In this document: one piece after another, positions 26,859 to 43,032 of the stretch | Position numbering within the stretch: position 1 is the first letter of the stretch | How the letters are laid out: each line of letters starts with the position of its first letter | Source: an uncultured Dongia sp. | GTDB taxonomy: Bacteria; Pseudomonadota; Alphaproteobacteria; Dongiales; Dongiaceae | Length of the DNA: 64,000 nucleotides | Reading direction: 5' to 3' | NCBI RefSeq assembly: GCF_936916975.1 | Contig: NZ_CAKZGO010000019.1 | Coordinates: 1-64,000 of the forward strand | Made by a program: the position numbers and the translations under genes | Notes under the pieces: generated by a model | What the model saw: only the letters and a program-made list of their open reading frames with translations | The model's database searches: none | Told to the model about the DNA's origin: nothing

Positions 26859-28199
26859 ATGGCCCTTCCCGCCCACGTCAAATATGTCGTCATCGGTGCC
26901 GGCATCCACGGCCTCTCTTCGGCCTGGCATCTTGCCGAAAACCTCCGCAAGACCGGCAAGGGATCGGGCGCTGACGTGCTCATCATCGATAAGACGGCCA
27001 TCGCGGCGGGTGCCTCGGGCATCGCCTGCGGCGTCGTGCGCAACAACTACTTCCAGCCGGCCATGCGGCGCCTGATGGCGCATTCGGTCGGTGTATGGGA
27101 GAGCGATCCGGAGGCCTTCTCGTATCACTCGGTCGGCTACATGCAGATCAGCCCGGAAATCATGCACAGCGACGTGGCCTCGATCTACGCCCAGCAGAAG
27201 GAGATCGGCTATACCTCGACCTTCATCGAGGGCGAGAAGGATTGCATGACCTATATGAAGGGCATCTTCGACGATTGGCAGGCCAAGGGCATCACCTCGG
27301 TCCTCCATGAGAAGAAGGGGGGCTATGCCAACAACACCGCTGCCATGTATGGCCTGGCCAAGAAAGCCGAGGCCGAGGGTGTGCGCATCGTCACCGGCGT
27401 CGAGCTGAAGGGGCTGAAGCGCGACGCTAAGGGCGCCGTCACCGCAGTCGAGACCAACCAAGGCGACATCAAGTGCGACTACGTCATCGCCGGCATGGGT
27501 CCCTGGGTGCGCTCAGTCTGGAAGATGCTCGATCTGCCTGACGCAATCTCGATCAAGGGCAAGGACGGCAAGGTGCACGACAACGTGCCGATGTGGGTCT
27601 ATTGGTCGCTGCAGGAAGGCACGCTCGGCGTCGATCCCGACCATCAGAAGACCAATGACGGCAAGATGCCGCCCGTAATCCATGTCGACACAGACGCGCC
27701 GCTTTACTCCGACGAGGACGGCTCGCTCATCACCGACAAGCTCTGGGGCATCTATTACAAGCCCGACTTCCATTTCGGCGGCATCCAGGGCGGCGCCATG
27801 CCGTTCAAGGTGCCGACCGCGCTCGACAAGGTGCGCGTCGACCCCTACGGCCCGGACAGCCCGGAATTCATCGTCGGCGACGATTTTGCGCATATGTGGG
27901 TGTCGGCTTTGGCCTTCTGCCAGAAGCGTTTCATGGGCACCATGCCGAAATACAAGAAAGAACCCTCGGGCGGCATCGGGTGCTTCACGGCCGACAGCTT
28001 CCCGGTCTTCGACAAATTTGCCGAGAACGTCTACATCATCGCCGATTCGAACCACGGCTATAAGATGATCGGCGTCGGCAAGCTGGTGGCGGACGATATC
28101 TGTGGCATGGGCGACGAGCTGCTGCGCCCGTTCCGCTTCTCGCGCTTCGCCGAGGGCAAGCTGCATCCGACCTCGAACTCGCCGTTCCCGTGGAGCTGA
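26859..28199 (+). CDS. DAO-family FAD oxidoreductase of the methylamine island
   Basis: A 446-residue single-chain flavoprotein related to sarcosine oxidase subunit beta and MgdA. The FAD motif is YVVIGAGIHGLSSAWHL, followed by IIDKTAIAAGASGIACGVVR. The C-terminus has GCFTADSFPVFDKFAENVYI and DSNHGYKMIGVGKLVA, the typical DAO cover. Two inserts (around residues 220-260 and 290-310) make it longer than SoxB (about 415). It lies beside the ligase and MgsABC-type genes but has no SoxDAG partners here, so it may act alone on N-methylglutamate or another N-methyl amino acid (inference). The start is ATG 26859 with GGAG upstream. Confidence 0.85.
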   Translation: MALPAHVKYVVIGAGIHGLSSAWHLAENLRKTGKGSGADVLIIDKTAIAAGASGIACGVVRNNYFQPAMRRLMAHSVGVWESDPEAFSYHSVGYMQISPEIMHSDVASIYAQQKEIGYTSTFIEGEKDCMTYMKGIFDDWQAKGITSVLHEKKGGYANNTAAMYGLAKKAEAEGVRIVTGVELKGLKRDAKGAVTAVETNQGDIKCDYVIAGMGPWVRSVWKMLDLPDAISIKGKDGKVHDNVPMWVYWSLQEGTLGVDPDHQKTNDGKMPPVIHVDTDAPLYSDEDGSLITDKLWGIYYKPDFHFGGIQGGAMPFKVPTALDKVRVDPYGPDSPEFIVGDDFAHMWVSALAFCQKRFMGTMPKYKKEPSGGIGCFTADSFPVFDKFAENVYIIADSNHGYKMIGVGKLVADDICGMGDELLRPFRFSRFAEGKLHPTSNSPFPWS

Positions 28200-28221
28200 G
28201 TTAGCAACCGCACGCCCTATC

Positions 28222-28311
28222 CGTCATGGTCGGCGAAGGCCGACCACCCACGAGTTTCTATGCGTTGGAAGAAAGCAACTCGTGGGTCCTCCGCCTTCGC
28301 GGAGGATGACG
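28222..28311. repeat. Intergenic inverted repeat, family B copy 1
   Basis: The element starts CGTCATGGTC and ends GGATGACG. An inner pair, ACCCACGAGTT and AACTCGTGGGT, is a perfect 11-bp inverted repeat. It separates the convergent DAO and gntR genes. A related copy is at 56122-56220 and a short form at 34615-34644. Confidence 0.8.
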
Positions 28312-28317
28312 ACTGGG

Positions 28318-29085
28318 TCACGCCCCCTCGATCCCCATCAACTGCCGCCGGGCAAAGTGGAGGTGGCTCGTCACCATCGCGGCCGCACCTTCGACATCGC
28401 GGCTGGCAATGGCACCGAGCAGCGCCCGGTGCTGGCGGTTGTATTCGGCGATGCGCGCCGGGGTCAGCACCTTGTCGCGCATCGAGGCCCATTGATCGTG
28501 TGAGCGGATCTCGTTCACATGCTGGTAAAGCCAGAGGATGAGTCGGTTATGGCTCGCCTCCGCCAGCAGCAGGTGGAACTGCGTGTCCCATTCTGTCCAC
28601 ACCGCCGCGTCATCGCCGGCCGCCTCTGCCTGCTCGATCGCCTCGCTCATCTTTTCGAGATCGCGGTTGCTGGCATTGAGGACGGCAAGCCGCGTCATAT
28701 GCGGTTCGATGCCAAGGCGCGCCTCGATGAGTTCCAGCGGTGAGGTCGAATCGGCGATGTTGTCGAGTTCAGAAACTTGCCGGTGATTGACGAAGGTGCC
28801 GCTGCCGACCCGGCGCGTCACCAACCGTTCCTGTTCCAATTGATCGAGGGCGAGGCGCACGGTGGTGCGGCTTGCATCGAACGCATCTGCGAGATGCCGT
28901 TCCGCCGGCAGCTTCTCACCATGCTGATAAGTCCCGGCCACAATCGCCTGCCGCAATTGCCCGGCGATCCAGACCGAGCCACGGTTGGAATCGACCGGCA
29001 ACGTACCGGCATCAACAGCAGATGTACCAATTCGGCCCAATTGTGATCCTTTGAAAAAATTGGTTGGCAGCCTTAGGACCACCAT
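28318..29085 (-). CDS. GntR-family regulator, FadR/FCD type
   Basis: A 255-residue repressor. The winged helix is at residues 38-100 (GQLRQAIVAGTYQHGEKLPA; LADAFDASRTTVRLALDQL), and an FCD ligand domain follows (residues 115-245) with metal-ligand positions in EWDTQFHLL, NRQHRALL and TSHLHFARR. FCD regulators respond to carboxylic or amino acids. It is divergent from the ligase/mgs operon, with 269 bases between, and convergent with the DAO gene, so it is the natural island regulator. The first ~33 residues lack family similarity and the true start may be further in. Confidence 0.88.
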   Translation of the reverse strand: MVVLRLPTNFFKGSQLGRIGTSAVDAGTLPVDSNRGSVWIAGQLRQAIVAGTYQHGEKLPAERHLADAFDASRTTVRLALDQLEQERLVTRRVGSGTFVNHRQVSELDNIADSTSPLELIEARLGIEPHMTRLAVLNASNRDLEKMSEAIEQAEAAGDDAAVWTEWDTQFHLLLAEASHNRLILWLYQHVNEIRSHDQWASMRDKVLTPARIAEYNRQHRALLGAIASRDVEGAAAMVTSHLHFARRQLMGIEGA

Positions 29086-29354
29086 GCAAGACTGGATTAT
29101 GCGAGTGGGGTAGCCAACCGGTCAATCGCCGACAGTCAAACCCGCCAGCCTGATAACCACGACTGTCGAAGACGGAGAGCGCGAAAGACACAAGGCCCAT
29201 TCCCCATCGCCCGCGAAGGATCCCTGAGCTGACCATCAAGATCAGCCAGGCGAACAAGAAGAGTTGTTGCAGCAACGAACTGACGCGGTATGCCGGGACC
29301 GTCCCGGCATCGATCAACGGCGGCTGAGGCTCTGCCGTTTTTGGGAGGGTGGTT

Positions 29355-30821
29355 ATGACTGACCTTGAGGCACACGTCGCACAAAAAGGGCGCAAAGAAC
29401 TCGTCAAGCAAGTACGCGCCCAGATCAACGCACTCGGTATCAAATACATCTACTATCAATTCGTTTCGGTGACCGGCCGCATCGTCGGCAAGGGCGTTCC
29501 CGCAGATCATTGGGAAACCGTCGCCGAAAAAGGCTTTCAGCTGGTCTATGGCTCGACAGCCAATCTCTTCGTCGACCGTCGCAAGAATTACATCGGCTAC
29601 GGCCCGGAAGCATCCGAACTGGTCGGCATTCCCGATCCGGAAACTTTCGTGCAACTGCCCTGGGACAAGCGCGTGGCGCGCGTCTTTTGCACCTGCTTCC
29701 GCAATCGCGAGGAGCGCGAGGATCCGGGCGCGCATTTGAGCTCCGATTGCCGCGGCAATCTCCGCATCATCCATGACGAGTTCAAGAAGAAGCATAAGGG
29801 CCTGCATCTACGGCACGGTTGCGAGCCGGAAATGATGTGGCTGAAGAAGGGCGAGAACGGCTTGCCCGATGGCGGCTTCTCCAAGCCCAATTGCTATCAC
29901 ATCGACCAGTTCGAAAGCCTGCGCCCGGTCTTCATGAAGGTGATCGAATACGCCCAGGCCATGGGTCTCGACATGATCCAGGGCGATCATGAGGATGCAC
30001 CCGGTCAGCTAGAGCTGAACTGGATGTATGATGATTGCCTGCGTACAGCCGACCGCCTGACGACCTATCGTCAGATCTGCGCCCAGGTCGCCCGCGAAAA
30101 CAATCTCATCGCCTGCTTCATGCCAAAGCCCTTCATGGGCGTCTCGGCTTCCGGCTGCCATCACAACCTGTCGCTCTGGACCGGTGGCGAAGACACCATC
30201 AACACGCTCCATCAAGACAAGCTGCCCGGCCAGAAGGACGTGTTCACCTACCGGAAGGGTGGCGTCAACACCTTCATGCCGCCCAAAGCCCACGGCAAGC
30301 CGGGCCAGATCGGCCTCTATTCCATCGGCGGCGTGATCAAGCATCTCAATGCGCTGACCGCGATCGGTTCCTCGACGGTGAACTCCTATCGCCGCCTGTG
30401 GGATACCGGCTTCTGGGCACCGGTCTTTGCCGATTGGGGCTATCAGAACCGCACCTGCGCGCTGCGCATCTCGGCGCCGGGCCGCTTCGAATACCGCTCG
30501 GTCGACGCCGCGGTAAACCCGTATCTCATGGCCGGCGCTTTGCTCAAGGCCTTCGACGACGGCATCACCAACAAGATCGATCCGGGCGAACCGGAAGAGC
30601 GCAACATGTATGAGGCAATTGCGGCCGGCAAGAAGGTCAAGAAATTGCCGATGAGCCTCGGCGAAGCGCTCGATCATCTGGAGAACGACAAGGTCATCAA
30701 CTCGGCACTGCCGGGCGACATGATGCGCGTCTTCATGCACTACAAACGTGACGAACATGAAAAATTCATGGCCACCGTCACCGATTGGGATCTGGAGCAA
30801 TACTGGGACATCCTGCCCTAA
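29355..30821 (+). CDS. Glutamine synthetase-like ligase, likely gamma-glutamylamide synthetase
   Basis: A 488-residue member of the glutamine synthetase superfamily. The N-terminal beta-grasp region contains IKYIYYQFVSVTGRIVGKGVP, and the catalytic part contains CEPEMMWL, GDHEDAPGQLELNW, SASGCHHNLSLW and RISAPGRFEYRSVDAAVNPYL shortened to its core, carrying the metal and ATP ligands. By context with MgsABC-type genes and Tmm/Tdm it probably makes gamma-glutamylmethylamide (GmaS role), but it is longer than typical GmaS (about 450) and differs in sequence, so another amine substrate is possible. The ATG follows GGGAGGG. First gene of a five-gene operon. Confidence 0.82.
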   Translation: MTDLEAHVAQKGRKELVKQVRAQINALGIKYIYYQFVSVTGRIVGKGVPADHWETVAEKGFQLVYGSTANLFVDRRKNYIGYGPEASELVGIPDPETFVQLPWDKRVARVFCTCFRNREEREDPGAHLSSDCRGNLRIIHDEFKKKHKGLHLRHGCEPEMMWLKKGENGLPDGGFSKPNCYHIDQFESLRPVFMKVIEYAQAMGLDMIQGDHEDAPGQLELNWMYDDCLRTADRLTTYRQICAQVARENNLIACFMPKPFMGVSASGCHHNLSLWTGGEDTINTLHQDKLPGQKDVFTYRKGGVNTFMPPKAHGKPGQIGLYSIGGVIKHLNALTAIGSSTVNSYRRLWDTGFWAPVFADWGYQNRTCALRISAPGRFEYRSVDAAVNPYLMAGALLKAFDDGITNKIDPGEPEERNMYEAIAAGKKVKKLPMSLGEALDHLENDKVINSALPGDMMRVFMHYKRDEHEKFMATVTDWDLEQYWDILP

Positions 30822-30869
30822 CGGGCAGGGTTACCCCCTTCTCCAGCGGATAAACTAAGGAGAACGACA

Positions 30870-31805
30870 ATGTGTGGGATCGCAGGATTGATCCACCGCG
30901 GCACGACCGGCGACATCGGGACAGAGATGACTGCCATGCTGCAAAGCCTGAAGCATCGCGGGCCGGATTCGACCGGCTTTGCGCTCTATGGCAGCCCAAA
31001 GGGCAATACCTTGATCATGCGCTTCAAGGTTGCCGAGCAGGAGGACATGAAGCACGGTTTCAAGATCAACGATCAGGTCATTGAACGCCGCGCTGAAGTC
31101 GACAAGCGTTTGAAGGAACTGGGCGCTACTATCGTCCAGGCCGAGAACGCAACCGACTACGCCTTCCGCTACACCCTCGATTTCGGCGGCGACAAGAAAA
31201 AGCTCGCCAACTATATCGAGGACATTGAGGGTGCCGAGATCTTGTCGCTGGGCTATGGCCTGGAACTGATCAAGGATCTGGGCGATGCCGCCGACGTTTC
31301 CGGCGCCTATTCGCTGAAGGGCTTCAAGGGCAGCCATGCGCTGGGTCACACGCGCATGGCGACCGAATCGGATGTCGATATCCGCTCGGCCCATCCTTAT
31401 TGGGCCTATCCCTTCGCCGATGTCTCAGTCGTCCATAACGGCCAGCTCACCAATTACTGGACAGGCCGGCGTGGCTTGGAGCGCCGCGGCCACCGCTTCA
31501 TGTCGAATTGTGATAGCGAGCTCATTGCCGTCTATCTCGCCGACAAGATGCAGCAGGGCGCCGATCTCAAGGACGCGATGACGGATTCCATCGAGGAGTT
31601 GGACGGCGTCTTCACCTATCTGGTGGCGACCGCCGACAGCTTGGGCATGGCCAAGGACGTCATGGCTGCAAAGCCCATGGTGCTTTACGAGAGCGACGAC
31701 TTCATCGGCCTTGCTTCCGAGGAAGTCGCCATCCGCAGCGTATTCCCGCACGAGATCGACACCTTCGACCCCTATGAGGGCGAAGTGCGGGTCTGGAAGC
31801 GGTAG
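30870..31805 (+). CDS. mgsA: Class II glutamine amidotransferase subunit (MgsA/GlxB type)
   Basis: A 311-residue Ntn-hydrolase resembling the amidotransferase domain of glutamate synthase. Cys2 of MCGIAGLIHRG is the nucleophile, with LGHTRMATESD, SVVHNGQLTNYW and MSNCDSELIAVYL providing the glutamine site. In N-methylglutamate synthase this subunit would release the amine from a gamma-glutamyl amide, but GlxB proteins look alike. AAGGAG precedes the ATG; 48 bases separate it from the ligase. The symbol is assigned by context. Confidence 0.85.
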   Translation: MCGIAGLIHRGTTGDIGTEMTAMLQSLKHRGPDSTGFALYGSPKGNTLIMRFKVAEQEDMKHGFKINDQVIERRAEVDKRLKELGATIVQAENATDYAFRYTLDFGGDKKKLANYIEDIEGAEILSLGYGLELIKDLGDAADVSGAYSLKGFKGSHALGHTRMATESDVDIRSAHPYWAYPFADVSVVHNGQLTNYWTGRRGLERRGHRFMSNCDSELIAVYLADKMQQGADLKDAMTDSIEELDGVFTYLVATADSLGMAKDVMAAKPMVLYESDDFIGLASEEVAIRSVFPHEIDTFDPYEGEVRVWKR

Positions 31806-31836
31806 TTGGATCAATAGAGAGAGCCAGGAGCCGAAC

Positions 31837-32673
31837 ATGGCGCTTCGCACCCAGTCACATGAAATGGGCATGCATACCGAGAAACTCTCGGGCCGCACCC
31901 AGCAACGCTTCTTCTCACCCTCGGAAGAAGAGAACTTCACCTATCCCGGCGCCTATGACGTCGATTTCAACAAGCGCGCAGAGTTCGACGCCGACAAGCT
32001 CTCGACCTCGGAGATCAATCTCAAGATCCGCGACCTGATGAAACAGGGCTACGGCACGATCGTCATGCGCAATCCCGGCGCCAAGCATGCGATCGCCGTC
32101 GGCATTCTCAACAAGCTCAATCTGCAGATCGAAGGCAGCCTCGGCTATTTCGGCTGCGGCTTGGTCGACGGTCCCAATATTCATATCAAAGGACGTGTCG
32201 GCTGGTCCTGCGCCGAAAACATGTTAGCCGGCACGGTGGTCATCGAGAAGAACGCCGGCTCCACTTTCGGCGCCGCCATTCGCGGCGGCGATCTGGTGTG
32301 CAAGGGCGATGTCGGCGCGCGCATGGGCATCGACCAGAAGGGTGGCACGATCATCGTCGGTGGCCGCTGCGGCGCCTTCTGCGGCTTCATGATGCAGCGT
32401 GGCCGCATGGTCGTGCTCGGCGATGCCGGCAAGAACCTCGGCGATTCCATGTATGACGGCACCATCTATGTCGGTGGCAAGATCGCCGGCCTCGGCGTCG
32501 ATGCCGTGCCGGGCGAGATGAACGACCTCGACTGCCAGTGGATGGAAGCCAAGCTCAAGCTCTACGGCATGAAGGCGCCGAACGGGGTCAAGAACATGAC
32601 CAAGATCGTTGCCGGCAAGCAGCTGTGGAATTACGACAACCTCGAGCCTTCGGAAAAGAAGCTGATCCTGTAA
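31837..32673 (+). CDS. mgsB: Glutamate synthase GXGXG-domain subunit (MgsB/GlxC type)
   Basis: A 278-residue protein consisting of a right-handed beta-helix as in the C-terminal domain of GltB, with repeated turns such as GSLGYFGCGLVDGPNIHIKG, GRVGWSCAENMLAG, GGDLVCKGDVGARMG and GGTIIVGGRCGAFCG. In the holoenzyme it structurally links amidotransferase and FMN domains. A long polar N-terminus (residues 1-50) is extra. The start is the ATG after AGGAG, not earlier ATGs inside mgsA. Confidence 0.85.
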   Translation: MALRTQSHEMGMHTEKLSGRTQQRFFSPSEEENFTYPGAYDVDFNKRAEFDADKLSTSEINLKIRDLMKQGYGTIVMRNPGAKHAIAVGILNKLNLQIEGSLGYFGCGLVDGPNIHIKGRVGWSCAENMLAGTVVIEKNAGSTFGAAIRGGDLVCKGDVGARMGIDQKGGTIIVGGRCGAFCGFMMQRGRMVVLGDAGKNLGDSMYDGTIYVGGKIAGLGVDAVPGEMNDLDCQWMEAKLKLYGMKAPNGVKNMTKIVAGKQLWNYDNLEPSEKKLIL

Positions 32674-32729: not shown

Positions 32730-34112
32730 ATGGCAAAAGAGAAGAAGGCTCCGGCCACCGAACCGAAAACCAAGAAGCCGCTGTCGCGCGACACCTCGCG
32801 CCTGGGCAACAGCTTCATGTTCCCGCCGACCGTCATCGACGACATCCATATCAAATCCGAACTCGGCCGCTATCGCATGCGCGGCTTCTCGCTGTTCAAG
32901 AAGATCCCGAGCTGGGACGACCTCACCTTCCTGCCCGGCACCCTCACCCGCTTCGTCATCGAGGGCTACCGCGAGAAGTGCGAGACCAAGACCATCATCG
33001 GCCCGAAATGCAAGCGGCCGCTGGTGCTCGACATCCCGGTCTATGTCACCGGCATGAGCTTCGGCGCGCTCTCCTTCGAAGCCAAGATCGCGCTCGCGCG
33101 CGGTGCCACCATGGCCGGCACCGCGACCTGCTCCGGCGAAGGCGGCATGATCCCAGACGAGCGCCGCTTCAGCTCGAAATGGTTCTATCAATGCATCCAG
33201 TCGCGCTACGGCTTCAACCCGCACCATCTGCAATTGGCGGATGCCTGCGAATTCTTCATCGGCCAGGGTTGCAAGGTCGGCCTCGGCGGCCATCTCATGG
33301 GCCAGAAAGTGACCGATCAGGTTGCCGAAATGCGCTCCCTGCCTGCCGGTATCGATCAGCGCTCGCCGGCCCGTCATCCCGATTGGCTGGGGCCTGACGA
33401 TCTTGCGCTGAAGATTCAGGAAATCCGCGAAGCCACCAATTGGGAAATCCCCATCCAGCTGAAGCTGGGTGCAGCCCGCGTCTATGACGACGTGCGCATG
33501 GCGGCGAAGACCGGTCCGGACAGCATCTATATCGACGGCATGGAAGGCGGCACCGGTGCCGGCCCGCACATCGCCACCGAGGAAACCGGCGTTCCCGGCA
33601 TCGCCGCCATCCGCCAGGCGCGCAAGGCGCTCGACGATGTGGGCAAGACCGGCGAGATCAGCCTGGTTTATGCCGGCGGTATCCGCAATGGCGGCGACGT
33701 GGCGAAGGCGCTGGCACTCGGCGCCGATGCCGTCGCCATCGGTCACTCGGCGCTGATGGCCTTGAACTGCAACAAGGACATCCCGGAAGCCGACTTCCCC
33801 AAGGAGATCGGCTGCGAGGCGGGCTATTGCTATCATTGCCATACCGGCCGCTGCCCGGTCGGCGTCGCAACGCAGGATCCGATCCTGCGCAAGCGTCTCG
33901 ATCCCGATGAAGCGGCGGAGCGGGTCTATAACTTCCTGCACTGCCTCACCATCGAAGCTCAGATGATGGCGCGTGCCTGCGGCAAGACCAATGTGCATTC
34001 CCTGGAACCCGAGGATCTCGCGGCCCTCACCATGGAAGCCTCGGCCCTGGCTCAGGTCCCGCTCGCCGGTTCGCAACACACTGTCGGCCGTCCCGACATG
34101 ACCCGTTACTAA
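32730..34112 (+). CDS. mgsC: FMN-binding glutamate synthase-like subunit (MgsC/GlxD type)
   Basis: A 460-residue TIM-barrel flavoprotein related to the FMN/[3Fe-4S] domain of glutamate synthase. GMSFGALSFEAKIALARGA, GEGGMIPDER, DGMEGGTGAGP and VYAGGIRNGGDVAKALALGADAV carry the FMN and 2-oxoglutarate/substrate elements. The Cys cluster CGYCYHCHTGRCPVGVAT-like region (EAGYCYHCHTGRCPVG) supplies the iron-sulfur ligands. It starts at the ATG after AAGGA with a Lys-rich leader. It would make N-methylglutamate in the MgsABC complex (inference from context). Confidence 0.86.
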   Translation: MAKEKKAPATEPKTKKPLSRDTSRLGNSFMFPPTVIDDIHIKSELGRYRMRGFSLFKKIPSWDDLTFLPGTLTRFVIEGYREKCETKTIIGPKCKRPLVLDIPVYVTGMSFGALSFEAKIALARGATMAGTATCSGEGGMIPDERRFSSKWFYQCIQSRYGFNPHHLQLADACEFFIGQGCKVGLGGHLMGQKVTDQVAEMRSLPAGIDQRSPARHPDWLGPDDLALKIQEIREATNWEIPIQLKLGAARVYDDVRMAAKTGPDSIYIDGMEGGTGAGPHIATEETGVPGIAAIRQARKALDDVGKTGEISLVYAGGIRNGGDVAKALALGADAVAIGHSALMALNCNKDIPEADFPKEIGCEAGYCYHCHTGRCPVGVATQDPILRKRLDPDEAAERVYNFLHCLTIEAQMMARACGKTNVHSLEPEDLAALTMEASALAQVPLAGSQHTVGRPDMTRY

Positions 34113-34122
34113 GGAGGCACCG

Positions 34123-34539
34123 ATGGCAGAGAAGAAAGCTGCAGCCAAGCCGGCCGGTAAGGAAGACGTCGACAAGTATCTGAAGGGCGATGGGCTCGAT
34201 TCATCTCGCGAGAAGGAAATCGGCCAGCACATCGGCTATCGCTACGACGTCAACCTCGTGCCCGATTACGCGCGCCTCACCCCGTTCCTGAAGAAGTATC
34301 TGGAAACGATGGGCTGGGATGACCTCAACTGGCTCGAAGATGTCCATATGGGTTACGAGGAAGGCCGCGCCGCGGTGTTCGACCGCAACATCAACGGCTG
34401 GGTCACGGTGCCCCAGGACCTCAAGCTGCCCGACAACCAGCAGGACCGCGACATGATCGCGCGCGAATTGCTGATCAAATTCCAGATGTCGAAGAAGCAC
34501 CCGATGGTCGACCTCAACAAGGCCTATCGGAAGTTCTAG
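34123..34539 (+). CDS. Uncharacterised 138-residue protein co-transcribed with mgsABC
   Basis: Not a family I recognise. It has a Lys/Ala-rich start (MAEKKAAAKPAGKED) that resembles the Lys-rich leader of the preceding MgsC-like protein. A soluble helical body follows, with Trp and Asp (METMGWDDLNWLEDVHMGY) and a basic end, NKAYRKF. There is no signal peptide, membrane helix or Cys. It begins 10 bases after mgsC behind a perfect AAGGAGG, and a strong terminator follows it, so it is the last gene of the ligase-mgsABC operon. A fourth subunit or assembly factor is plausible. Confidence 0.8.
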   Translation: MAEKKAAAKPAGKEDVDKYLKGDGLDSSREKEIGQHIGYRYDVNLVPDYARLTPFLKKYLETMGWDDLNWLEDVHMGYEEGRAAVFDRNINGWVTVPQDLKLPDNQQDRDMIARELLIKFQMSKKHPMVDLNKAYRKF

Positions 34540-34651: not shown

Positions 34652-35254
34652 TTACTCCTCCTCCTCAAACCCGCTCGCTCCTTCGCTCCTGCCCCAATCC
34701 GGTGCGAACGACAGGATGCGCACGCCGGCCGGAATATTCGGGTTGAACATGCGGTTATGCCAATAGGTCGATTGATAGAGCAGGTCATGCTCGGAAAGCT
34801 CCGTGACCTTGCACAGCAGCCGGAAGCGCTGGCTGAGCTCGGCAAATTCCAGATTGATCTTGCCGTGATTGAGCAGTTGGTCGACCAGCGGCGATGCCGG
34901 CCCGAACAAGGCCGTGAGCGTGTCATCAAAATCGCGATAGCGCTGGAAATAGCCGGCGGCCATGTGCTCGGTCGCCTTCTCCCAGCGCTCCACCGGGTCC
35001 TGGGTCTTCAGCACCTGATGGCGAAAGAACGCCGTCGAGTCTTCCGTCTCCGCCTTGTGCAGCAGCACGACCGTGGCGCCGGCGAGCTGCTGGTCATCGC
35101 GCGAGAAGATGAGCGGGCGCATGCCGGCACTCGGCCGGCCGCCGCCTTCGCGCATCGCCATCTGTCGCAGACGGCATTGCCAATGCAGAAAATCTTCGCG
35201 CAAAGCGGCCGCCGCCTCGCCAATCAGGACCACCTTGTCAGCACCCTTCGCCAT
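34652..35254 (-). CDS. Conserved-looking protein of unknown function
   Basis: A 200-residue cytosolic protein, mostly helical, unrecognised. The features are REGGGRPSAGMRPLIF near residue 35, a DSTAFFRHQVLKTQDPVERWEKATEHMAA helix, here truncated in quotation, and a C-terminus ending in four Glu (GFEEEE). It has no signal sequence or membrane helix. It converges on the ligase-mgs operon with the mini repeat between. An upstream region of about 450 bases separates it from the permease gene, so the two are divergent. Confidence 0.7.
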   Translation of the reverse strand: MAKGADKVVLIGEAAAALREDFLHWQCRLRQMAMREGGGRPSAGMRPLIFSRDDQQLAGATVVLLHKAETEDSTAFFRHQVLKTQDPVERWEKATEHMAAGYFQRYRDFDDTLTALFGPASPLVDQLLNHGKINLEFAELSQRFRLLCKVTELSEHDLLYQSTYWHNRMFNPNIPAGVRILSFAPDWGRSEGASGFEEEE

Positions 35255-35708: not shown

Positions 35709-37424
35709 ATGTCTGCGGAAACGATGTCGGGCCCTGCCAAGGGCGAATTGGTACGCTCCATTGATTGGCGCGGTGCCTTCTGGGTAGCGAGCGGCGTTCC
35801 GGCCCTCGTCCTGTTCTCGATCGGCGGCATTGCCGGCACAGTCGGCAACATCGCGTTCGCCATCTGGGCCGTCTCGATGCTGATGGGCTTCGTACAATCC
35901 TTCACCTATGCCGAAATCGCTGGCCTGTTCCCGAACAAATCGGGCGGTGCGTCGGTCTATGGCGCCGCCGCCTGGCTGAAATACGGCAAGTTCATCGCGC
36001 CACTTTCGGTGTGGTGCAACTGGTACGCCTGGACGCCTGTGCTCTCACTCGGCAGCGTCATTGCCGCCGGCTATATCCTGGGCATTGTCGAACCAGGACC
36101 GGCGGCCGAAGCCGTTGCCGCCAAGATTGCCGAAGCAGCGGCCGCTGGCAATGTGATGGATGAAGCGACCGCCACAGCAGAATTGATGTGGATCCACAAT
36201 GCACTGAATGACTGGTACTTCGGCATTTCAATACCCTTCACCGAGGCGATCGTCACGCTTTCCTTCAACACGACCTTCTTCATCGGCGCCATTCTGATGC
36301 TGGTCGCTTTCTTCATTCAGCATCGCGGTATCCTTGGCACTGCCAAGGTGCAAACAGTGGTTGGCCTGGTCATCATCATCACACTGTTTGTGGTGGGTGT
36401 GGTGCCGTTCTTCAACGGCAACTTCAACAGCGCGAACTTCTCGCCCTTCGTGCCGTTGGCGGTACCCTATGCACCGGAACCTGGCACCTGGAATGTTGCC
36501 GGCTGGACCCTGGTTCTCGCTGGCATGTTCATCGCCGCATGGTCGACCTATGGCTTTGAAACCGCGATCTGCTACACCAGCGAGTTCAAGAATCCGGCCA
36601 CGGATACCTTCAAGGCCATCTTCTATTCCGGCCTGCTGTGTCTGGTGCTGTTCATCCTGGTGCCGATCACCTTCCAGGGCTATCTCGGCCTGGGCGGCAT
36701 GTTGGAAACCGGCATCGTCGACGGCTCCGGCGTTGCCAACGCGATGGCCCTGATGGTCGGCGGCGGCGCTGTCGTCAACAAGATCTTCGTGATTTTGATG
36801 ATCGCTTCCTTGATGCTCATCATCATCACGGCGATGGCCGGCTCATCCCGCACGCTCTATCAGGGCTCCGTCGATGGCTGGTTACCGAAGTTCCTCAGCC
36901 ATGTGAACCATAACGGTGCCCCGACAGGTGCCATGTGGACCGATCTTGTCGTGAACTTGGTCTTGCTGGCGATTGCCGCCACCGATGCGACGTCGTACTT
37001 CTTCATCCTCGCGGTGTCGAATTGCGGCTACATCATCTTCAACTTCCTCAACCTCAATTCCGGCTGGATCCATCGGATCGATAACGGCCATATCCATCGT
37101 CCCTACAAGGCGCCGACGATCATCCTGGCGATCGGCACCATCCTCGCCTTCGTCAACGCCGTGTTCATGGGCGCTGGCGCCAAGATCTGGAATCCCTATG
37201 CTCTGTGGTGTGGCATCGGCTTTGCCGCGGTCATCATTCCAGTCTTCTGGTTCCGCCATCATGTCACCGACAAGGGTCAGTTCCCGCGTCGCATGCTGGA
37301 AGATCTCGGCATCCGCGACATCGGGCATCTTGGTGAAAAGAAAGCCGGCATGCTGCCCTATATCACCCTGGCGGCCGGCGTGATCGTGGTCCTTGTCTCG
37401 AACGTGATCTTCACGCTCGAATAA
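35709..37424 (+). CDS. APC-superfamily amino acid/amine permease
   Basis: A 571-residue inner-membrane transporter with about 12-14 helices. The first helix, GAFWVASGVPALVLFSIGGIAG split over the unwound segment, and IGGIAGTVGNIAF are typical of the APC fold. An unusual Ala/Glu-rich extracytoplasmic loop (around residues 120-170) and a C-terminal extra helix are present. Amino acid and polyamine permeases of this type are H+ or Na+ driven. Its position beside Tmm, Tdm and Mgs genes suggests uptake of a methylated amine or related nitrogen compound (inference). A perfect hairpin terminator follows. Confidence 0.87.
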   Translation: MSAETMSGPAKGELVRSIDWRGAFWVASGVPALVLFSIGGIAGTVGNIAFAIWAVSMLMGFVQSFTYAEIAGLFPNKSGGASVYGAAAWLKYGKFIAPLSVWCNWYAWTPVLSLGSVIAAGYILGIVEPGPAAEAVAAKIAEAAAAGNVMDEATATAELMWIHNALNDWYFGISIPFTEAIVTLSFNTTFFIGAILMLVAFFIQHRGILGTAKVQTVVGLVIIITLFVVGVVPFFNGNFNSANFSPFVPLAVPYAPEPGTWNVAGWTLVLAGMFIAAWSTYGFETAICYTSEFKNPATDTFKAIFYSGLLCLVLFILVPITFQGYLGLGGMLETGIVDGSGVANAMALMVGGGAVVNKIFVILMIASLMLIIITAMAGSSRTLYQGSVDGWLPKFLSHVNHNGAPTGAMWTDLVVNLVLLAIAATDATSYFFILAVSNCGYIIFNFLNLNSGWIHRIDNGHIHRPYKAPTIILAIGTILAFVNAVFMGAGAKIWNPYALWCGIGFAAVIIPVFWFRHHVTDKGQFPRRMLEDLGIRDIGHLGEKKAGMLPYITLAAGVIVVLVSNVIFTLE

Positions 37425-37440
37425 ATGACGGAAGGCAAGA

Positions 37441-37468: not shown

Positions 37469-37475
37469 CCTTTGA

Positions 37476-38321
37476 ATGCATATGCCTGATCTGCTCAACG
37501 CCAATACCATCGACACCTTCCGCCGCGACGGTTTCGTCATCATCCGCGGCCTGCTTTCCGCGGCTGAGGTCGAAACGGCCCGCGCCCGCATCGAACCCCT
37601 GTTTCAGGGAAAATTCGAGACCGGACTTTATCCTGACGAATGGAACTGGCAGGAAGGCCGCGATCCCGCCGATCGCACACGCCAGATCTGCAATGGCTGG
37701 AAATCCGACCGGACGCTTGCCCGCATCATCCTGTCGGCCAAAGTCGGCGAGCTTTGCGCAAGGCTGGGTGACTGGCCCGGCGCGCGCCTCGGCCAGGACA
37801 ATGTGCTGTGGAAACCTCCCGGCGCCAAATCATTGGGCTTTCACCAGGACGACAGCTATTGCCATTGGGTCGTGCCCGCCGGCTACATCACCTGTTGGAT
37901 GCCGCTCGATGCAACACGCGCCGATGGCGGCACCATCGAATATGCACGCGGCTCACATCTGTGGCCGCTCTCTGTGCCCAAGGGCAAGTTCCACGCGCCC
38001 GATGATTACCGCGCCACCTTGCGCGATGCAGCGGCGGAAGTGGGTGGCACAATCGATATCGTGCCCATTGAAGTGGCGGCAGGTGACGCCGTGATCCATC
38101 ACGGCCATGTCTGGCACGGCTCCGGCGCCAACAGTGCCACCGTCCCGCGCCGCGCTCTCGTCTCACACTGCATCTCGTCGGACTGCCAGTTTCATCCCAC
38201 CGAGATCAGCTACATTTACAGCCGCTATCGTCGCCGTGACGACCTCACCATGGATGAGAGTTTTTTCCCGATCCTCTGGCGACGCGACGGCTACCGCACA
38301 GCCTGGCTTGATGCGCAGTGA
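37476..38321 (+). CDS. Phytanoyl-CoA dioxygenase (PhyH)-family oxygenase
   Basis: A 281-residue Fe(II)/2-oxoglutarate-dependent oxygenase. The iron triad is visible: HQD in LGFHQDDSYCHW near residue 128 and the distal His in HHGHVWHGSGAN near residue 210, with Arg in VPRRALVSHC for 2-oxoglutarate. The WMPLDATRADGGTIEYARGSH core (quoted in part) is typical. The substrate is unknown; family members hydroxylate lipids, betaine-like compounds and ectoine. It lies between the permease and tmm. Starts at ATG 37476 or 37482 lack a ribosome site. Confidence 0.87.
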   Translation: MHMPDLLNANTIDTFRRDGFVIIRGLLSAAEVETARARIEPLFQGKFETGLYPDEWNWQEGRDPADRTRQICNGWKSDRTLARIILSAKVGELCARLGDWPGARLGQDNVLWKPPGAKSLGFHQDDSYCHWVVPAGYITCWMPLDATRADGGTIEYARGSHLWPLSVPKGKFHAPDDYRATLRDAAAEVGGTIDIVPIEVAAGDAVIHHGHVWHGSGANSATVPRRALVSHCISSDCQFHPTEISYIYSRYRRRDDLTMDESFFPILWRRDGYRTAWLDAQ

Positions 38322-38468
38322 GCCGAGTTGGGATAATTGGTACGACTTTGGTTGAAATATGTTTGCTTTTGGTAACGAGCGCATTGAAAGCCCGTAATTC
38401 TATGGGTACCTTTCGACGTCAGATCGTGCGTACCGCTTGAAAGAACAGGCCAGCTACAGGGAGCCCAC

Positions 38469-39812
38469 ATGAAAAAGCGCGTTGCCGTCATCGGCGCAGG
38501 CCCATCCGGAACCGCCGTGTTGCGAGCCTTCCAATCCGCCGCCGCCAAGGGTGCCGAGATCCCCGAGGTTGTATGCTTCGAAAAGCAGGAAGATTGGGGC
38601 GGCCTGTGGAACTACACGTGGCGCACCGGGCTCGACGAATTCGGCGAGCCGGTCCATGGCAGCATGTACCGTTATCTGTGGTCGAACGGCCCAAAGGAAT
38701 GCCTCGAATTCGCCGACTATACGTTCGAGGAACATTTCGGCCGCCCGATCGCCTCCTATCCGCCTCGCGCCGTGCTGTGGGATTACATCAAGGGCCGTGT
38801 CGAGAAGGCGGGCGTCCGTAAATGGGTCCGCTTCCGCACGGCCGTACGCCACCTCTCCTATGACGACAAAACCGGCAAGTTTACGATCGAGGCCCACGAC
38901 CTCGCCAACGACAAGGTGACGGCCGAGGAGTTCGACCATGTCATCGTCGCCTCCGGCCATTTTTCGGTGCCGAACGTGCCCGAATTCCCGGGCTTCCGCA
39001 ATTTCAACGGCCGAATCCTGCACTCCCACGATTTCCGCGACGCGGTCGAGTTCAAGGGCAAAGACATCCTGATCATCGGCCGCTCCTATTCGGCTGAGGA
39101 TGTGGGCTCGCAATGCTACAAATACGGGGCCAAATCGATCACCAGTTCCTATCGCAGCAAGCCGATGGGCTTCAAATGGCCGGCCAATTGGGAGGAGAAG
39201 CCGCTCCTCCAACGCGTTGAGAACAAGACAGCCTTCTTCAAGGACGGCAGCACCAAGGAAGTTGACGCGATCATCCTGTGCACCGGCTATCTCCACCACT
39301 TCCCCTTCATCGAGGACAAGCTGCGCCTGCGCACGGCCAACCGCATGTGGCCGCTGGGTCTCTATCGCGGCGTGGTGTGGGAGAACAATCCGAAGCTGCA
39401 TTACATCGGCATGCAGGACCAGTTTTATACCTTCAACATGTTCGACGCTCAGGCCTGGTACTCGCGTGACGTCATCCTCGGCCGGGAGCCTCTGCCTGCC
39501 AAGGCCGAGATGCAGAAGCACAGCGCCGCCTGGCGGGCGCGAGAAGAGACGCTTGAAGATGCCGAGCAGATGATCTGGTTCCAGGGCGATTATGTGAAGG
39601 AGCTGATCAGCCTCACCGACTATCCGAGCTTCGACATCGAGACAGTCAACAAGACCTTCATGGAGTGGGAACACCACAAGGCCGAAAACATCATGGGCTT
39701 CCGCGACAACTCCTACCGCTCGGTCATGACCGGCACGATGTCGCCCGCCCATCACACGCCTTGGCTGAAGGCGATGGATGACTCACTGGAGAGCTATCTG
39801 AAGGCAAAATGA
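38469..39812 (+). CDS. tmm: Trimethylamine monooxygenase (flavin-containing monooxygenase)
   Basis: A 447-residue FMO that oxidises trimethylamine to TMAO with NADPH and O2. The FAD motif is [12 protein letters not shown] and the NADPH motif [10 protein letters not shown]. The FMO signature [11 protein letters not shown] fits FxGxxxHxxxF exactly. [26 protein letters not shown] and [13 protein letters not shown]-like [17 protein letters not shown] are the stretches I know from characterised bacterial Tmm, so I am confident. AGGGAG precedes the ATG. Tdm lies 0.8 kb away on the other strand. Confidence 0.94.
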
Positions 39813-39898
39813 GGCTTCTTCGCATCTGCGGGATTACCATTTGTTTACCAGCCCAGGCTAATTTTCCCGTCATCGGTCCATTTTCCTAAGGCAGCGTG

Positions 39899-40645
39899 AT
39901 GGCCATGACTTTGGATGAATCAGGGAACGCCATGATCGACGAGACGATGTCAGGAGACGGATTCAGTCCGGATAGAGCCGTCGATGAACGGTTGGCGGCA
40001 CTTCTCAGCATCACCGGGCGGATGGACGGCTTCCTCTATCGCTGCCGCAACGACCCCAGCTACACGATGCTCTATATCAGCGAAGGCATCCTGGGCATGA
40101 GCGGCTATCCGCCCAGCGATTTCATCGGCAACAAGGTGCGCGGCTACAGCACCATCACCTATCCCGACGATCTGGGCGCCGTCGATGCAGCCGTCGGCAA
40201 GGCGCTCGAAACGCACAGCAATTGGACCATCGACTATCGCATTGTGCCGCGCCAGGGCGATCCCATTTGGGTGCATGAAATCGGCGGCGGCGTCTTCAAC
40301 GATGCCGGCGAGCTTGAGTTTCTCGAAGGCTTCATCATCGACATCACCGAAAGGAAGCAGCTCGAGGAAAAAAATCGTACCCTTATCGATCGCGTCGCGG
40401 GCATTTCCGAACACATCGTCAAGGACACCAGCAACATCCTCGAAGTGCTGCGTGCCCTGAAGATGCTGGCCTTGAACGCCCGCATCGAGGCCGCCCGCGC
40501 CGGCGAGCAGGGCATGGGCTTCGCCGTAGTGGCGCAGGAGATCAAGACGCTGGCCACAACCTCGGGCGCCTCGGCGGAACGCATCACCAGATTGATGAGC
40601 GAGCTGCAGGAAGTGCTCGCAGTGCCGGGCGGTAAGGGGCATTAA
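39899..40645 (+). CDS. Soluble PAS protein with a short MCP-like signalling segment
   Basis: A 248-residue cytosolic protein. Residues 30-150 are a PAS fold (YTMLYISEGILGMSGYPPSD; GGVFNDAGELEFLEGFIIDITERKQ in part). After a coiled coil comes ALNARIEAARAGEQGMGFAVVAQE, the methyl-accepting chemotaxis tip, but the protein ends about 40 residues later, so only a short hairpin is possible. There are no membrane segments. The ATG at 39899 follows AAGG. Its last four bases overlap tdm tail to tail. A role in sensing methylamine redox state is conjecture. Confidence 0.85.
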   Translation: MAMTLDESGNAMIDETMSGDGFSPDRAVDERLAALLSITGRMDGFLYRCRNDPSYTMLYISEGILGMSGYPPSDFIGNKVRGYSTITYPDDLGAVDAAVGKALETHSNWTIDYRIVPRQGDPIWVHEIGGGVFNDAGELEFLEGFIIDITERKQLEEKNRTLIDRVAGISEHIVKDTSNILEVLRALKMLALNARIEAARAGEQGMGFAVVAQEIKTLATTSGASAERITRLMSELQEVLAVPGGKGH

Positions 40646-43032
40646 CTCCGCGGCTTCAGTTTCTCCGGATCGTAGAACGGGAACTTCACCACGCGGGCTG
40701 GCAGTCGTTTCTGCTGACCGTCGATCTTGCCAATCTCGACTTCGGTGCCAAGCGCGGCATAGGTCACATCGATGCGGCAGAGCGCGATGTTCTTGCCCAA
40801 ACCGGGTGAAATGCACCCGGACGTGACCACACCGACCTGCGCGCGGCCGACATGCACACAATCGCCGTGGCCGACCGCCTGCTTGGCGTCGATTTCCAAT
40901 CCCACCAGCACGCGTTGCGCATGTTCCTTGCGGCGGATGATCGCCTCGCGGCCGACGAACTCCTCATTCCCCTTCAAGGCCACGGTGAAGCCAATGCCGG
41001 CTTCATAGGGATCAGTCTGGTCGTTGAATTCGTAATTGGCAAAAACCAATCCCGCTTCGATGCGCAGGATATCGAGCGCCTCCAGCCCCAACGGCAAAAG
41101 CCCATGCGGTTGCCCCGCGGCCCACACCGCGTCCCAGACCGCCGGTGCATCCTTGGGATGGCAGAAAATCTCGTAACCCAACTCACCGGAATAGCCGGTG
41201 CGCGAGACTACCACGGCAACACCGTTATAGTCACCGATCCGCCCCACCGTGAAATTGAACCACTGGATCTCATCGACCCGCGACCGCGCCGGCGGCGTCC
41301 AGATGATTTCTTTCAGGATGTCGCGACTCTTTGGCCCCTGAACCGCAATGTTATGAAGCTGGTCAGTCGCCGACTTCACCCAGACCTGTTTCAACCCGCG
41401 CTTCTCGGCCAGGTCGCGCAGCCATTTGCCGCCGAACTCGTCACCGCCGATCCAGCGATAGCGGTCCTGCCCCAGGCGGAACACTGTCCCGTCATCGACC
41501 ATGCCGCCATGCTCATAGCACATCGCGGTATAGACCACCTGCCCGTCGCTGAGCTTCCTTATGTTGCGCGTGCAGGCGATCTGCAGCAGATCCTCGGCAT
41601 CCGCCCCCAATACCTCGAACTTGCGCAAGGGTGAGAGATCCATCACCACGGCGGCTTCACGCGCCGCCCAATATTCCGCCGTCGGTCCGGCATTGTTGAA
41701 ACGATTGGGCAGCCAGAAGCCGCGATACTCCGTGAAGTTGCGCGTCAGCGCAGAGGTGCGCGGATGAAAGCCGGTCTCGCGGGTGAGGATCGGCTCAGAT
41801 TCTGGGGTCATGCGATACGCCATGGCTCGGGAGAAACTGTTCTTCGCATCATAGATGCGAACATGAATGTCGGTGGGGTTCCAGGCATTGGTGGCGTCGA
41901 TATCGTCCGGGCAGGCGGATGAGCCGCACACCAGATCCTTCATTGCCTTCATCAGCACGTAATCGCCCGGCCGTGACCAGGGGTCGTCGAGGAAGATCGC
42001 ATTCGCCGCATTGACGCCGGTGTTGTAGAAGAGATTGACCGCCTGCCAGCCGCGCCGCGTCTCCAAACCAAACTTCTCCAGGGCGAAGTTGAAGTTCTCC
42101 GAACAGCTGGGATGGCCTGGGTAACCGGCATCTTCATAGAATCGCGGCGTACATGCGAGCCCGAACGTATCGTGCCGCCCGCAGGTATCGCGCACCACCT
42201 CGACCAGCGCCTGCATGTCGACATCGAAGAATTTGGAGGCAAGGCCCGGCCCGGGATAGATCGCGCCAAGCATGGTCCGCGTCGTTGTCATGTCGATACC
42301 GCGCTCGCGCCCCGCGGCCAACTGCCTTGCATCGAAGGCGACGAAATCAGAGCACTGACGGCCGGCCACATCGATAATCTGAATGAACTGGCCTTGCCTA
42401 ACCTCGTAGGACAGCGCTGTGCATTTATCGACCCTGTACTCCGCCACCATCTCGCCCAAAGGTGCAGGCAATGGCGGCATCAGCAGGGGCGACGGATTGG
42501 CCCGCCGTACCACGACGCTAAGGTCGGTGGGTGGCATCTGATCCTCCGGCAGCATCTCGCTGCCCGGCGCATGCAAGACGACGATCACGGGCCGCTCGGC
42601 CTGCATCTTTGCCGTGTCGCCAGGCCGCGTGTCGCCGGTCAGCACGCGCGCGGCATCGTCGACACCCTTGGGCATGTGCCACTGCGCCAGTTGATGACGC
42701 AGCTGGATGATCTCGTCGGGATTGCCATGCGCGAGCGGCCTGCCGGCCAGGATTTGCGTGATGCCCGCCGACGGACCATCGCCCTTCAGCCCCAGCGCAC
42801 CCAAATCCGGCCGCGGCGTTTCATGATGCTGTGCGCCAGGCCCGGTGAAGGCGGCGATCTCGCAGGCCTGCCGCCCTTCCCGATCTGTGATCTCAAGATG
42901 GTCGCCGCTTTCGAGCCGCAGAATCAGCGCACCCTGCCCTGCCAACCGGTAGCGCTCAACGGCCGGGTCCCAGCGCGGCAGGCCGGGCTCGATCACCCGC
43001 GGTCGCGACTGGCTGCGTTCCATGACGGTCAT
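40642..43032 (-). CDS. tdm: TMAO demethylase-like DUF1989-GcvT fusion
   Basis: A 796-residue two-domain protein. Residues ~30-390 are the DUF1989 unit, a zinc site region with Cys-rich GHPSCSENFNF and CGSSACPDD. Residues ~420-790 are an aminomethyltransferase (GcvT) tetrahydrofolate domain (LSPLRKFEVLGADAEDLL; TGYSGELGYEIF; LRIEAGL). This is the layout of Tdm, which splits TMAO into dimethylamine and formaldehyde, with the GcvT part receiving formaldehyde on THF. Proximity to tmm supports the call. AGGA precedes the ATG. A DUF1989-GcvT enzyme of other specificity remains possible. Confidence 0.9.
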   Translation of the reverse strand: MTVMERSQSRPRVIEPGLPRWDPAVERYRLAGQGALILRLESGDHLEITDREGRQACEIAAFTGPGAQHHETPRPDLGALGLKGDGPSAGITQILAGRPLAHGNPDEIIQLRHQLAQWHMPKGVDDAARVLTGDTRPGDTAKMQAERPVIVVLHAPGSEMLPEDQMPPTDLSVVVRRANPSPLLMPPLPAPLGEMVAEYRVDKCTALSYEVRQGQFIQIIDVAGRQCSDFVAFDARQLAAGRERGIDMTTTRTMLGAIYPGPGLASKFFDVDMQALVEVVRDTCGRHDTFGLACTPRFYEDAGYPGHPSCSENFNFALEKFGLETRRGWQAVNLFYNTGVNAANAIFLDDPWSRPGDYVLMKAMKDLVCGSSACPDDIDATNAWNPTDIHVRIYDAKNSFSRAMAYRMTPESEPILTRETGFHPRTSALTRNFTEYRGFWLPNRFNNAGPTAEYWAAREAAVVMDLSPLRKFEVLGADAEDLLQIACTRNIRKLSDGQVVYTAMCYEHGGMVDDGTVFRLGQDRYRWIGGDEFGGKWLRDLAEKRGLKQVWVKSATDQLHNIAVQGPKSRDILKEIIWTPPARSRVDEIQWFNFTVGRIGDYNGVAVVVSRTGYSGELGYEIFCHPKDAPAVWDAVWAAGQPHGLLPLGLEALDILRIEAGLVFANYEFNDQTDPYEAGIGFTVALKGNEEFVGREAIIRRKEHAQRVLVGLEIDAKQAVGHGDCVHVGRAQVGVVTSGCISPGLGKNIALCRIDVTYAALGTEVEIGKIDGQQKRLPARVVKFPFYDPEKLKPRS

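Follow-up and report, generated by a model that had tools for sequence, protein, structure and literature searches.

A second ligase and synthase module beside tmm and tdm in an uncultured Dongia sp.: a candidate route for dimethylamine

The window analysed here spans positions 1-64,000 of contig C19 (190,306 bases; NZ_CAKZGO010000019.1) from the genome of an uncultured Dongia sp. (5.48 Mb in 47 contigs, 100% complete). Part of it is an island of genes for the use of trimethylamine (TMA) and trimethylamine N-oxide (TMAO), in which a five-gene operon encodes a glutamine-synthetase-like (GS-like) ligase (LIG2), three subunits similar to MgsABC (MgsA2, MgsC2 and MgsB2, together Mgs2) and a conserved protein of 138 amino acids (aa). 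A stand-alone flavin amine oxidase or dehydrogenase (DAO) lies nearby. The ligase and its MgsABC-like subunits are a second set, distinct from the GmaS–Mgs methylamine set that the same genome carries elsewhere. The reading favoured here, which we hold to be somewhat probable, is that LIG2, Mgs2, DAO and Mgd form a route for dimethylamine (DMA) that is joined to the standard TMA/TMAO front end. The identities of the genes, the distinctness of the second set, the conserved operon and its linkage with tdm, tmm and mgd are observed, as are its coexistence with GmaS and, in the genomes searched, its exclusion with a strong protein of the DMA monooxygenase (Dmm) family. DMA as the substrate and all of the intermediates are presumed, and the case for the route comes from this exclusion and from an argument about a demethylation step that is set out below.

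A set distinct from GmaS and Mgs

The original prediction had read the ligase and its complex as the methylamine (GmaS–Mgs) pathway and the island as a near-complete methylamine locus. The coupling of a GS-like ligase to an MgsABC-type complex is confirmed by the Pfam domains and by a conserved gene order, but the pathway assignment did not hold. LIG2 scores under the cut-off of the GmaS model TIGR03105 (313.1 vs 469.6), while a GmaS above that cut-off (674.4) and the mgs- and mgd-like genes lie on another contig, C3. The window cluster itself has no mgdABCD. The C3 set (locus L026, 18 kb, on one strand) contains gmaS, homologues of mgsB, mgsC and mgsA, and PuuR-like and GbdR-like regulators; SoxA-, SoxD- and SoxB-like genes occupy the places of mgdC, mgdB and mgdA, and a gene that has no NCBIfam match that of mgdD. 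The scores of these Sox-like proteins are under the sarcosine-oxidase cut-offs (844 vs 1164, 65.5 vs 116.5 and 499 vs 529, respectively), as expected if they are Mgd and not Sox. A separate set, with SoxA and SoxB above cut-off, is found on contig C21.

The two sets of the host are only distantly similar. GmaS is the best paralogue of LIG2 in its own genome, at about 29-32% identity, and the corresponding values are 33% for MgsA, 35% for MgsC, 53-54% for MgsB and 23% for DAO and MgdA (FAD domain). A tree of 58 rows separates LIG2, LIG3 and plasmid rows from 11 GmaS rows with 100/99 support, although the tool warned of long branches meeting at that split. Nevertheless, the general plan is shared: as in GmaS-MgsABC-MgdABCD, a GS-like ligase is combined with class II amidotransferase, GXGXG and flavin mononucleotide (FMN) glutamate-synthase-domain subunits, there is linkage with Mgd, and LIG2 keeps the DHEDA(N/P)GQxExN motif and a Trp at the Glu-flap position. 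In contrast to the canonical set, the window module has DAO and the 138-aa protein in addition.

Two simpler assignments were ruled out. LIG2 is not a divergent GmaS, given the TIGR03105 cut-off, the identity, the tree and the presence of a real GmaS. DAO, in turn, is not MgdA: it scores 66.3 against a cut-off of 529.45 with the SoxB model TIGR01373, is 23% identical to the MgdA of its own genome, and an MgdA-like gene is already present on C3. It shares its fold and FAD domain with the SoxB, dimethylglycine oxidase (DMGO) and MgdA flavoproteins, but differs from the DMGO type in having no GcvT domain of its own. Two adjacent DMGO-like genes, which join a DAO and a GcvT part, occur elsewhere in the host (contig C30, 18.6-23.7 kb, L029) and represent further demethylation capacity.

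Occurrence with Tdm and exclusion with Dmm

The distribution of the module was followed in 387 genomes of the host's class, drawn evenly and at least 90% complete. The search for known DMA enzymes covered DmmA and PF11927, which we take to be the HODM-type family that holds a Dmm subunit; DMA dehydrogenase was not included. The original prediction had suggested a search for dmm and mgd elsewhere in the host genome. Mgd-like genes are present on C3, and the PF11927 and DmmA models give no match in the complete host genome.

Full-length TMAO demethylase (Tdm) is present in 36 of the 387 genomes. In 32 it exceeds the NF053776 cut-off; in the others (G175, G283, G038 and G018) it is under the cut-off and was still counted as Tdm. 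LIG2 occurs in 27 of these 36 genomes (at 71-100% identity, once as a fragment) and a strong PF11927 protein in seven, while none has both and two have neither. This exclusion gives a Fisher p of 4.3e-6, or of 2.6e-4 when counted by family (12 with LIG2, six with PF11927, none common and one with neither), both values ignoring kinship. GmaS is above cut-off in 33 of the 36 and in 26 of the 27 with LIG2. Thus, the LIG2 module coexists with GmaS and is not a replacement for it. DAO follows LIG2 closely, as it is found in 25/27 Tdm genomes with LIG2 and in 1/9 without.

A similar pattern is observed in the whole sample. LIG2 matches at E<=1e-100 occur in 38 genomes and PF11927 matches at E<=1e-40 in 47, with a single overlap, G223. 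The match in G223 is a 65% paralogue that lies beside a second GS-like gene and a PhyH gene and has neither Mgs2 nor the 138-aa gene, and it was rejected as a break of the exclusion because of this paralogue-type neighbourhood. The decision was post hoc: G223 and G315, also of the paralogue type by neighbourhood, were removed after their neighbourhoods had been seen, and G038, whose LIG2 fragment at a contig end (E 9e-92) missed the threshold, was added back by hand. After this adjustment the module is present in 37/387 genomes and its overlap with PF11927 is zero (p 0.014). By an eye count, 18 families have the module and 24 a strong PF11927 protein, with none in common. The original prediction had called the composition of the island unusual, and this is upheld in the sense that the island holds a conserved second module, for which no co-occurrence with a strong Dmm-family protein was found; such a module was not what it had proposed.

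Full-length Tdm is found in 27/37 module genomes compared with 9/350 others, and two further module genomes (G064 and G327) have a Tdm fragment at a contig end. The strong PF11927 gene lies about 12 kb or less from tdm or gmaS in five of the seven Tdm genomes that have it (G238, G353, G212, G366 and G262), a position that supports its assignment as Dmm; it is near neither gene in G133 and G018. The module is proposed for the same slot after Tdm that is filled by DmmDABC in Ruegeria pomeroyi and Methylocella silvestris, as described in the available text of PMC5520151. It differs from DmmDABC in that its proposed core has no oxygenase and in that it was not found with a strong PF11927 protein among the 36 Tdm genomes.

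Conservation of the operon and its neighbours

The order LIG2-MgsA2-MgsC2-MgsB2-138-aa gene, on one strand, is kept in 35 of the 37 module genomes, and the two exceptions (G244 and G038) are at contig ends. Because this five-gene order recurs so widely, the clustering of the island is far from chance. The three Mgs2 genes are present in 36/37 module stretches and the 138-aa gene in 35/37. A GntR/FCD gene (>=35% identity) accompanies them in 31/37 and a homologue of the conserved hypothetical U200 (>=29% identity) in 23/37. For comparison, a GntR near tmm in G133 is 34% identical to that of the window, and six other Dmm-type stretches were tried without a match.

DAO is present in 28/37 fetched module stretches, 26 times within 2 kb of LIG2. 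Linkage with Mgd is also observed: in G164 and G372 the module continues into MgdA-B-C-D in a single same-strand run, and Mgd genes adjoin it in G288, G350, G006 and G162. Where DAO is not linked to the module, it lies about 3 kb or less from MgdA and MgdC in G362, G234, G308 and G147, with MgdB also matched beside it in the last two, and near gmaS in G301. None of the query genes was seen around DAO in G350, G154 (at a contig end) and G133.

The proposed route

The standard front end consists of the TMAO permease, of Tmm, which converts TMA to TMAO, and of Tdm, which converts TMAO to DMA and formaldehyde. The second gamma-glutamyl module would then consume DMA in place of Dmm. LIG2 would use ATP to join DMA and glutamate into gamma-glutamyl-dimethylamide, from which MgsA2 would free DMA inside the complex, and N,N-dimethylglutamate would form when MgsB2/C2 reductively couple the DMA to 2-oxoglutarate. 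DAO would remove one methyl group to leave N-methylglutamate, and MgdABCD, on C3 in the host and adjacent in several relatives, would remove the second and regenerate glutamate. Monomethylamine (MMA) from other sources would be handled by the separate canonical GmaS-Mgs-Mgd set.

The substrates of flavin amine oxidases with the SoxB/DMGO fold are N-methyl amino acids, and the reaction of Mgs yields such an N-methyl amino acid from an amine bound as an amide. If DMA takes the place of MMA through the ligase and the synthase, the product would be N,N-dimethylglutamate, and consequently one more N-demethylation would be needed before Mgd. DAO could supply one such step. Regulation may point in the same direction, since DMA is the main effector of TmoR, a GntR regulator of R. 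pomeroyi, according to passages of PMC13390433; as a GntR/FCD gene is present in most module stretches, this was counted in favour of the DMA route.

Residues and predicted folds

The residues of RhGmaS, taken from the accessible part of PMC7948447, were placed by hand on the alignment, the numbering of the solved chain being offset by 20. The positions of Tyr147, Gln175, Asp177, Glu179, Glu186, Asn188 and Arg312 are invariant in 20 LIG2 sequences; the catalytic Asp177, Glu186 and Arg312 and most of the amine (MMA) contacts are thereby kept, while Lys30' is outside the alignment and was not placed. The positions that are conserved yet different between 28 GmaS and 109 LIG2 rows include several beside the amine site, where LIG2 has I for Y, G for N, P for N, L for F and L for M. 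These replacements suggest that the pocket of LIG2 may be roomier and could take a second methyl group.

The N-terminus of MgsA2 is Met-Cys-Gly in 100/100 alignments that start at residue 1. MgsB2 has a glutamate-synthase-type Cys cluster, CHTGxCP, in 86/86 complete rows (six cut-off alignments are omitted) compared with 4/18 for canonical MgsB. As the cluster is mostly absent from the canonical protein, the electron supply may differ between the two. The rows behind the comparison of 28 GmaS with 109 LIG2 and behind the counts for MgsA2 and MgsB come partly from the same contigs and are not all independent.

The profile of DAO matches SoxB, DMGO and monomeric sarcosine oxidase (MSOX) in the PDB. 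Its AlphaFold2 (AF2) model (pLDDT 74, pTM 0.80) is paired by Foldseek with 3ad9_B (E 1.2e-23, TM 0.68/0.76), and DAO is thus predicted to fold like SoxB and dimethylglycine oxidase. The 138-aa protein was modelled with a pLDDT of 76.5 and gave no fold match in the PDB at E<=0.001; its profile against PDB sequences reached a best E of 0.0055, which was not believed. Many of its positions are invariant over 29 rows, and it is possibly a new subunit or helper of the Mgs2 complex.

Relatives in SAR11, gammaproteobacteria and cyanobacteria

When genome contigs were scanned with the LIG2 alignment, at least 538 relatives were found. The counts that follow refer to the loci of the best 80 of them, many of which are cut by contig ends, and depend on identity cut-offs. 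These 80 include Pelagibacteraceae single cells, Thioglobus, other gammaproteobacteria and cyanobacteria, as well as one metagenome-assembled genome each of Gemmatimonadetes and Acidobacteria. MgsA2 is present in 66 of the loci, MgsC2 in 62, MgsB2 in 58, the 138-aa gene in 48, DAO in 44 and Tdm in 26; two PF11927 queries matched in none. The 19 loci labelled Pelagibacter, Pelagibacteraceae or Pelagibacterales all have MgsA2, B2 and C2; 18 have the 138-aa gene, 18 DAO, 16 Tdm and 15 GmaS, and canonical MgsA1 and MgsB1 are found in nine and eight. A further locus, L284, carries a Flavobacteriales label and groups inside the SAR11-type rows of the tree, which suggests a wrongly binned SAR11 contig.

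Seven of ten cyanobacterial loci were viewed gene by gene. Three share PhyH, and four share a protein next to LIG2, which is SBP_bac_3 in both of the cases tested. In L254 tmm is directly upstream of LIG2, and in L268 a tdm fragment and LIG2 are within one stretch of 9.6 kb. The L236 locus also holds an acyl-CoA-dehydrogenase-like protein, an ammonium transporter and an APC permease. It is possible that the cyanobacterial loci (L236, L268, L271, L240 and L254) use a different downstream route.

More distant relatives have other surroundings. The paralogue type (L188, L200 and L205-L208) is 57-67% identical to LIG2 and is accompanied by a second GS-like gene (25-30%) and, in five of six loci, by PhyH, with no Mgs2-138-aa operon. 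Relatives on plasmids were set aside, as their gene neighbours differ and the tree does not group them within the LIG2 clade; these neighbours are an aldehyde dehydrogenase and a gamma-Glu-GABA hydrolase in Paracoccus sp. TOH, and a P450 and an ABC transporter in Ruegeria sp. SCSIO 43209. A plasmid search with DAO found no close relative. Perhaps the paralogue-type and plasmid proteins act on another amine.

Weighing the DMA route

Several observations weigh against the DMA route. The exclusion may reflect lineage, since the two types never share a GTDB family in the sample. Ten of the 37 module genomes have no full-length Tdm (two of them with edge fragments), and two Tdm genomes, G216 (a draft) and G283, have neither LIG2 nor PF11927. 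A weak, distant PF11927 protein (51-59 bits), not counted as Dmm, occurs in G025, G216 and G285, so that members of the family are not entirely absent from SAR11-like genomes. DAO was missed in two of the 27 genomes (G062 and G310) and is present in G133, which has Dmm and no LIG2. The ten cyanobacterial loci hold LIG2 without Mgs2, DAO or the 138-aa gene nearby, and the same is true of the proteobacterial locus L263, which has full flanks and carries PhyH, Mgd, Mgs1 and GmaS near LIG2; the downstream steps are thus not universal. In G175 and G347, genomes of 1.2 Mb, canonical Mgs1 was not seen in the 60 and 39 kb that were fetched (the whole genomes were not searched), and Mgs2 may serve GmaS there. 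Finally, the available part of PMC8918994 reports that gmaS of HTCC1062 is up-regulated by TMAO, which fits a DMA-to-MMA step as well as co-regulation.

Part of this evidence would also be accommodated by a second MMA pathway, in which the module is an isoenzyme set of GmaS-MgsABC that differs in affinity or regulation, with DAO serving as an alternative oxidase of N-methylglutamate. The enzyme classes are the same, LIG2 keeps the catalytic and most MMA-contact residues, DAO lies by Mgd or GmaS in some genomes, and the stretches of G175 and G347 would fit. Nevertheless, GmaS is already above cut-off in all but one of the 27 Tdm genomes with the module, the small SAR11-like genomes G025 and G285 retain both ligase sets, and the exclusion with Dmm would be left unexplained. 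This explanation is considered unlikely.

Similarly improbable is a route in which LIG2 captures DMA, PhyH oxidatively demethylates gamma-glutamyl-dimethylamide to gamma-glutamylmethylamide for MgsABC, and Mgs2 and DAO act later or in parallel. It is in line with the PhyH gene inside the window and with homologues (42-64%) by LIG2 or its paralogue in 11 compared loci that were chosen for a known match. These loci include the three cyanobacterial ones that have PhyH by LIG2 in the absence of Mgs2 and DAO, and L263, in which Mgd, canonical Mgs1 and GmaS, but not Mgs2, accompany LIG2 and PhyH. By contrast, PhyH is found in only 4/37 module stretches, compared with 36/37 for MgsA2/B2/C2.

GS-like ligases have many amine substrates, and the module could handle another small amine, such as a choline or betaine breakdown product or ethylamine, with the link to Tdm being one of metabolic neighbourhood only, as the ten module genomes that lack full-length Tdm might suggest; the enrichment of Tdm in module genomes and the exclusion with Dmm speak against this reading, which is held to be slightly less likely than the other two.

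Significance for marine DMA

The step after Tdm has been a gap in SAR11, which is reported to have tmm, tdm and gmaS but not dmmDABC in the text available from PMC5520151 and PMC8918994. In the former, Lidbury et al. (2017) describe this gap as a metabolic bottleneck and a possible reason for the DMA found in marine aerosol; evidence of DMA oxidation by SAR11 was, they state, lacking. In the portion available of the latter, from 2022, HTCC1062 grows on TMAO as the sole nitrogen source and an unidentified DmmDABC isoenzyme is suggested. The available part of PMC3160333 assigns a function in methylamine use to one glxBCD and one glnT of SAR11, and places SAR11_1304, a gene for a monomeric sarcosine oxidase, next to those of an aminomethyltransferase and a transporter, with its role left open. 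Compared by this published description, the place of SAR11_1304 fits that of DAO beside Tdm in the present analysis.

The LIG2 module is a concrete, testable candidate for the DMA step of SAR11, as it lies near tdm in 16/19 Pelagibacter-labelled loci. A wider proposal is put forward tentatively, with rather more doubt than the route itself: that an undescribed, ATP-driven and oxygenase-free DMA route by way of gamma-glutamyl-dimethylamide and N,N-dimethylglutamate takes over the role of Dmm in many lineages, among them SAR11 and Thioglobus-type gammaproteobacteria. The DMA bottleneck postulated for the surface ocean would thereby be removed. If this were true, ocean DMA sinks would have been undercounted, because dmm has served as the marker gene, and LIG2 would be needed as a second marker. 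The gamma-glutamyl strategy would then also have a new use, with a secondary amine. Gamma-glutamyl-dimethylamide and N,N-dimethylglutamate were not found in bacterial amine metabolism in a literature search by title and start of abstract, with subscription papers and preprints mostly outside its reach; the three papers found with 'dimethylglutamate' concern, by their titles, mammalian tissue.

The front end and other genes of the window

All genes named in the original prediction were recovered in place by Pfam and NCBIfam matches, including the TMA/TMAO island with Tmm and Tdm, both above their NCBIfam cut-offs; it had not listed the 138-aa and 200-aa proteins (Table 1). The permease, Tmm and Tdm are each NCBIfam equivalogs above the curated cut-off, and the permease is, judging by its sequence, specifically of the TMAO permease family. 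In a PDB search, the alignment of Tdm with the solved TMAO demethylase 9q59 begins at residue 21 and runs to the end of Tdm (E 7.7e-268), and almost all of Tmm is covered by alignments with bacterial FMO/Tmm enzymes of solved structure (E down to 1e-233). The front end is thus like the Tmm-Tdm-TMAO permease system of Methylocella silvestris, which differs in that dmmABC (Msil_3607-3609) is required there for DMA, according to the available text of PMC5520151.

Table 1. Genes of the island, with positions in the window
Gene or product	Position	Strand	Description	Family or model match
DAO	26859..28199	+	446 aa, stand-alone flavin adenine dinucleotide (FAD) amine oxidase/dehydrogenase, SoxB/dimethylglycine-oxidase fold (predicted)	PF01266
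GntR/FCD regulator	28318..29085	-	Divergent from LIG2	PF07729, PF00392
LIG2	29355..30821	+	488 aa, glutamine-synthetase-like gamma-glutamyl-amine ligase (predicted)	PF00120 (Gln-synt_C)
MgsA2	30870..31805	+	Class II glutamine amidotransferase, Cys nucleophile after Met1	PF13522/PF13537 (GATase_6/7)
MgsC2	31837..32673	+	GXGXG subunit	PF01493
MgsB2	32730..34112	+	FMN glutamate-synthase-domain subunit, GltS-type Cys cluster kept	PF01645
138-aa protein	34123..34539	+	Conserved, last gene of the core operon	No Pfam/NCBIfam match
U200	34652..35254	-	200-aa conserved hypothetical	No Pfam/NCBIfam match
TMAO permease	35709..37424	+	APC family	AA_permease_2; NF053774 828.7 > 690
PhyH	37476..38321	+	PhyH-family Fe(II)/2-oxoglutarate oxygenase	PF05721
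Tmm	38469..39812	+	Trimethylamine monooxygenase	NF058570 855.2 > 675
PAS-MCP protein	39899..40645	+	Short PAS-MCP-domain protein	PF08447 (PAS_3), PF00015 (MCPsignal)
Tdm	40642..43032	-	TMAO demethylase, DUF1989 + GCV_T	NF053776 1170.4 > 1100; Pfam

The PAS-MCP gene sits between tmm and tdm, and its end overlaps that of tdm by four bases; a homologue (47%) is also found by tmm in the Dmm-type genome G366 (L182). Downstream of the island, two similar putative exported proteins with HExKH-like motifs are encoded at 43147-43872 and 44513-45298; neither has an NCBIfam match, and the first has no Pfam match either. Upstream, the region 21882-24689 encodes a DAO-family oxidase, an ACT-domain protein and a GbdR-like AraC regulator, which perhaps serve another N-methyl amino acid or betaine step.

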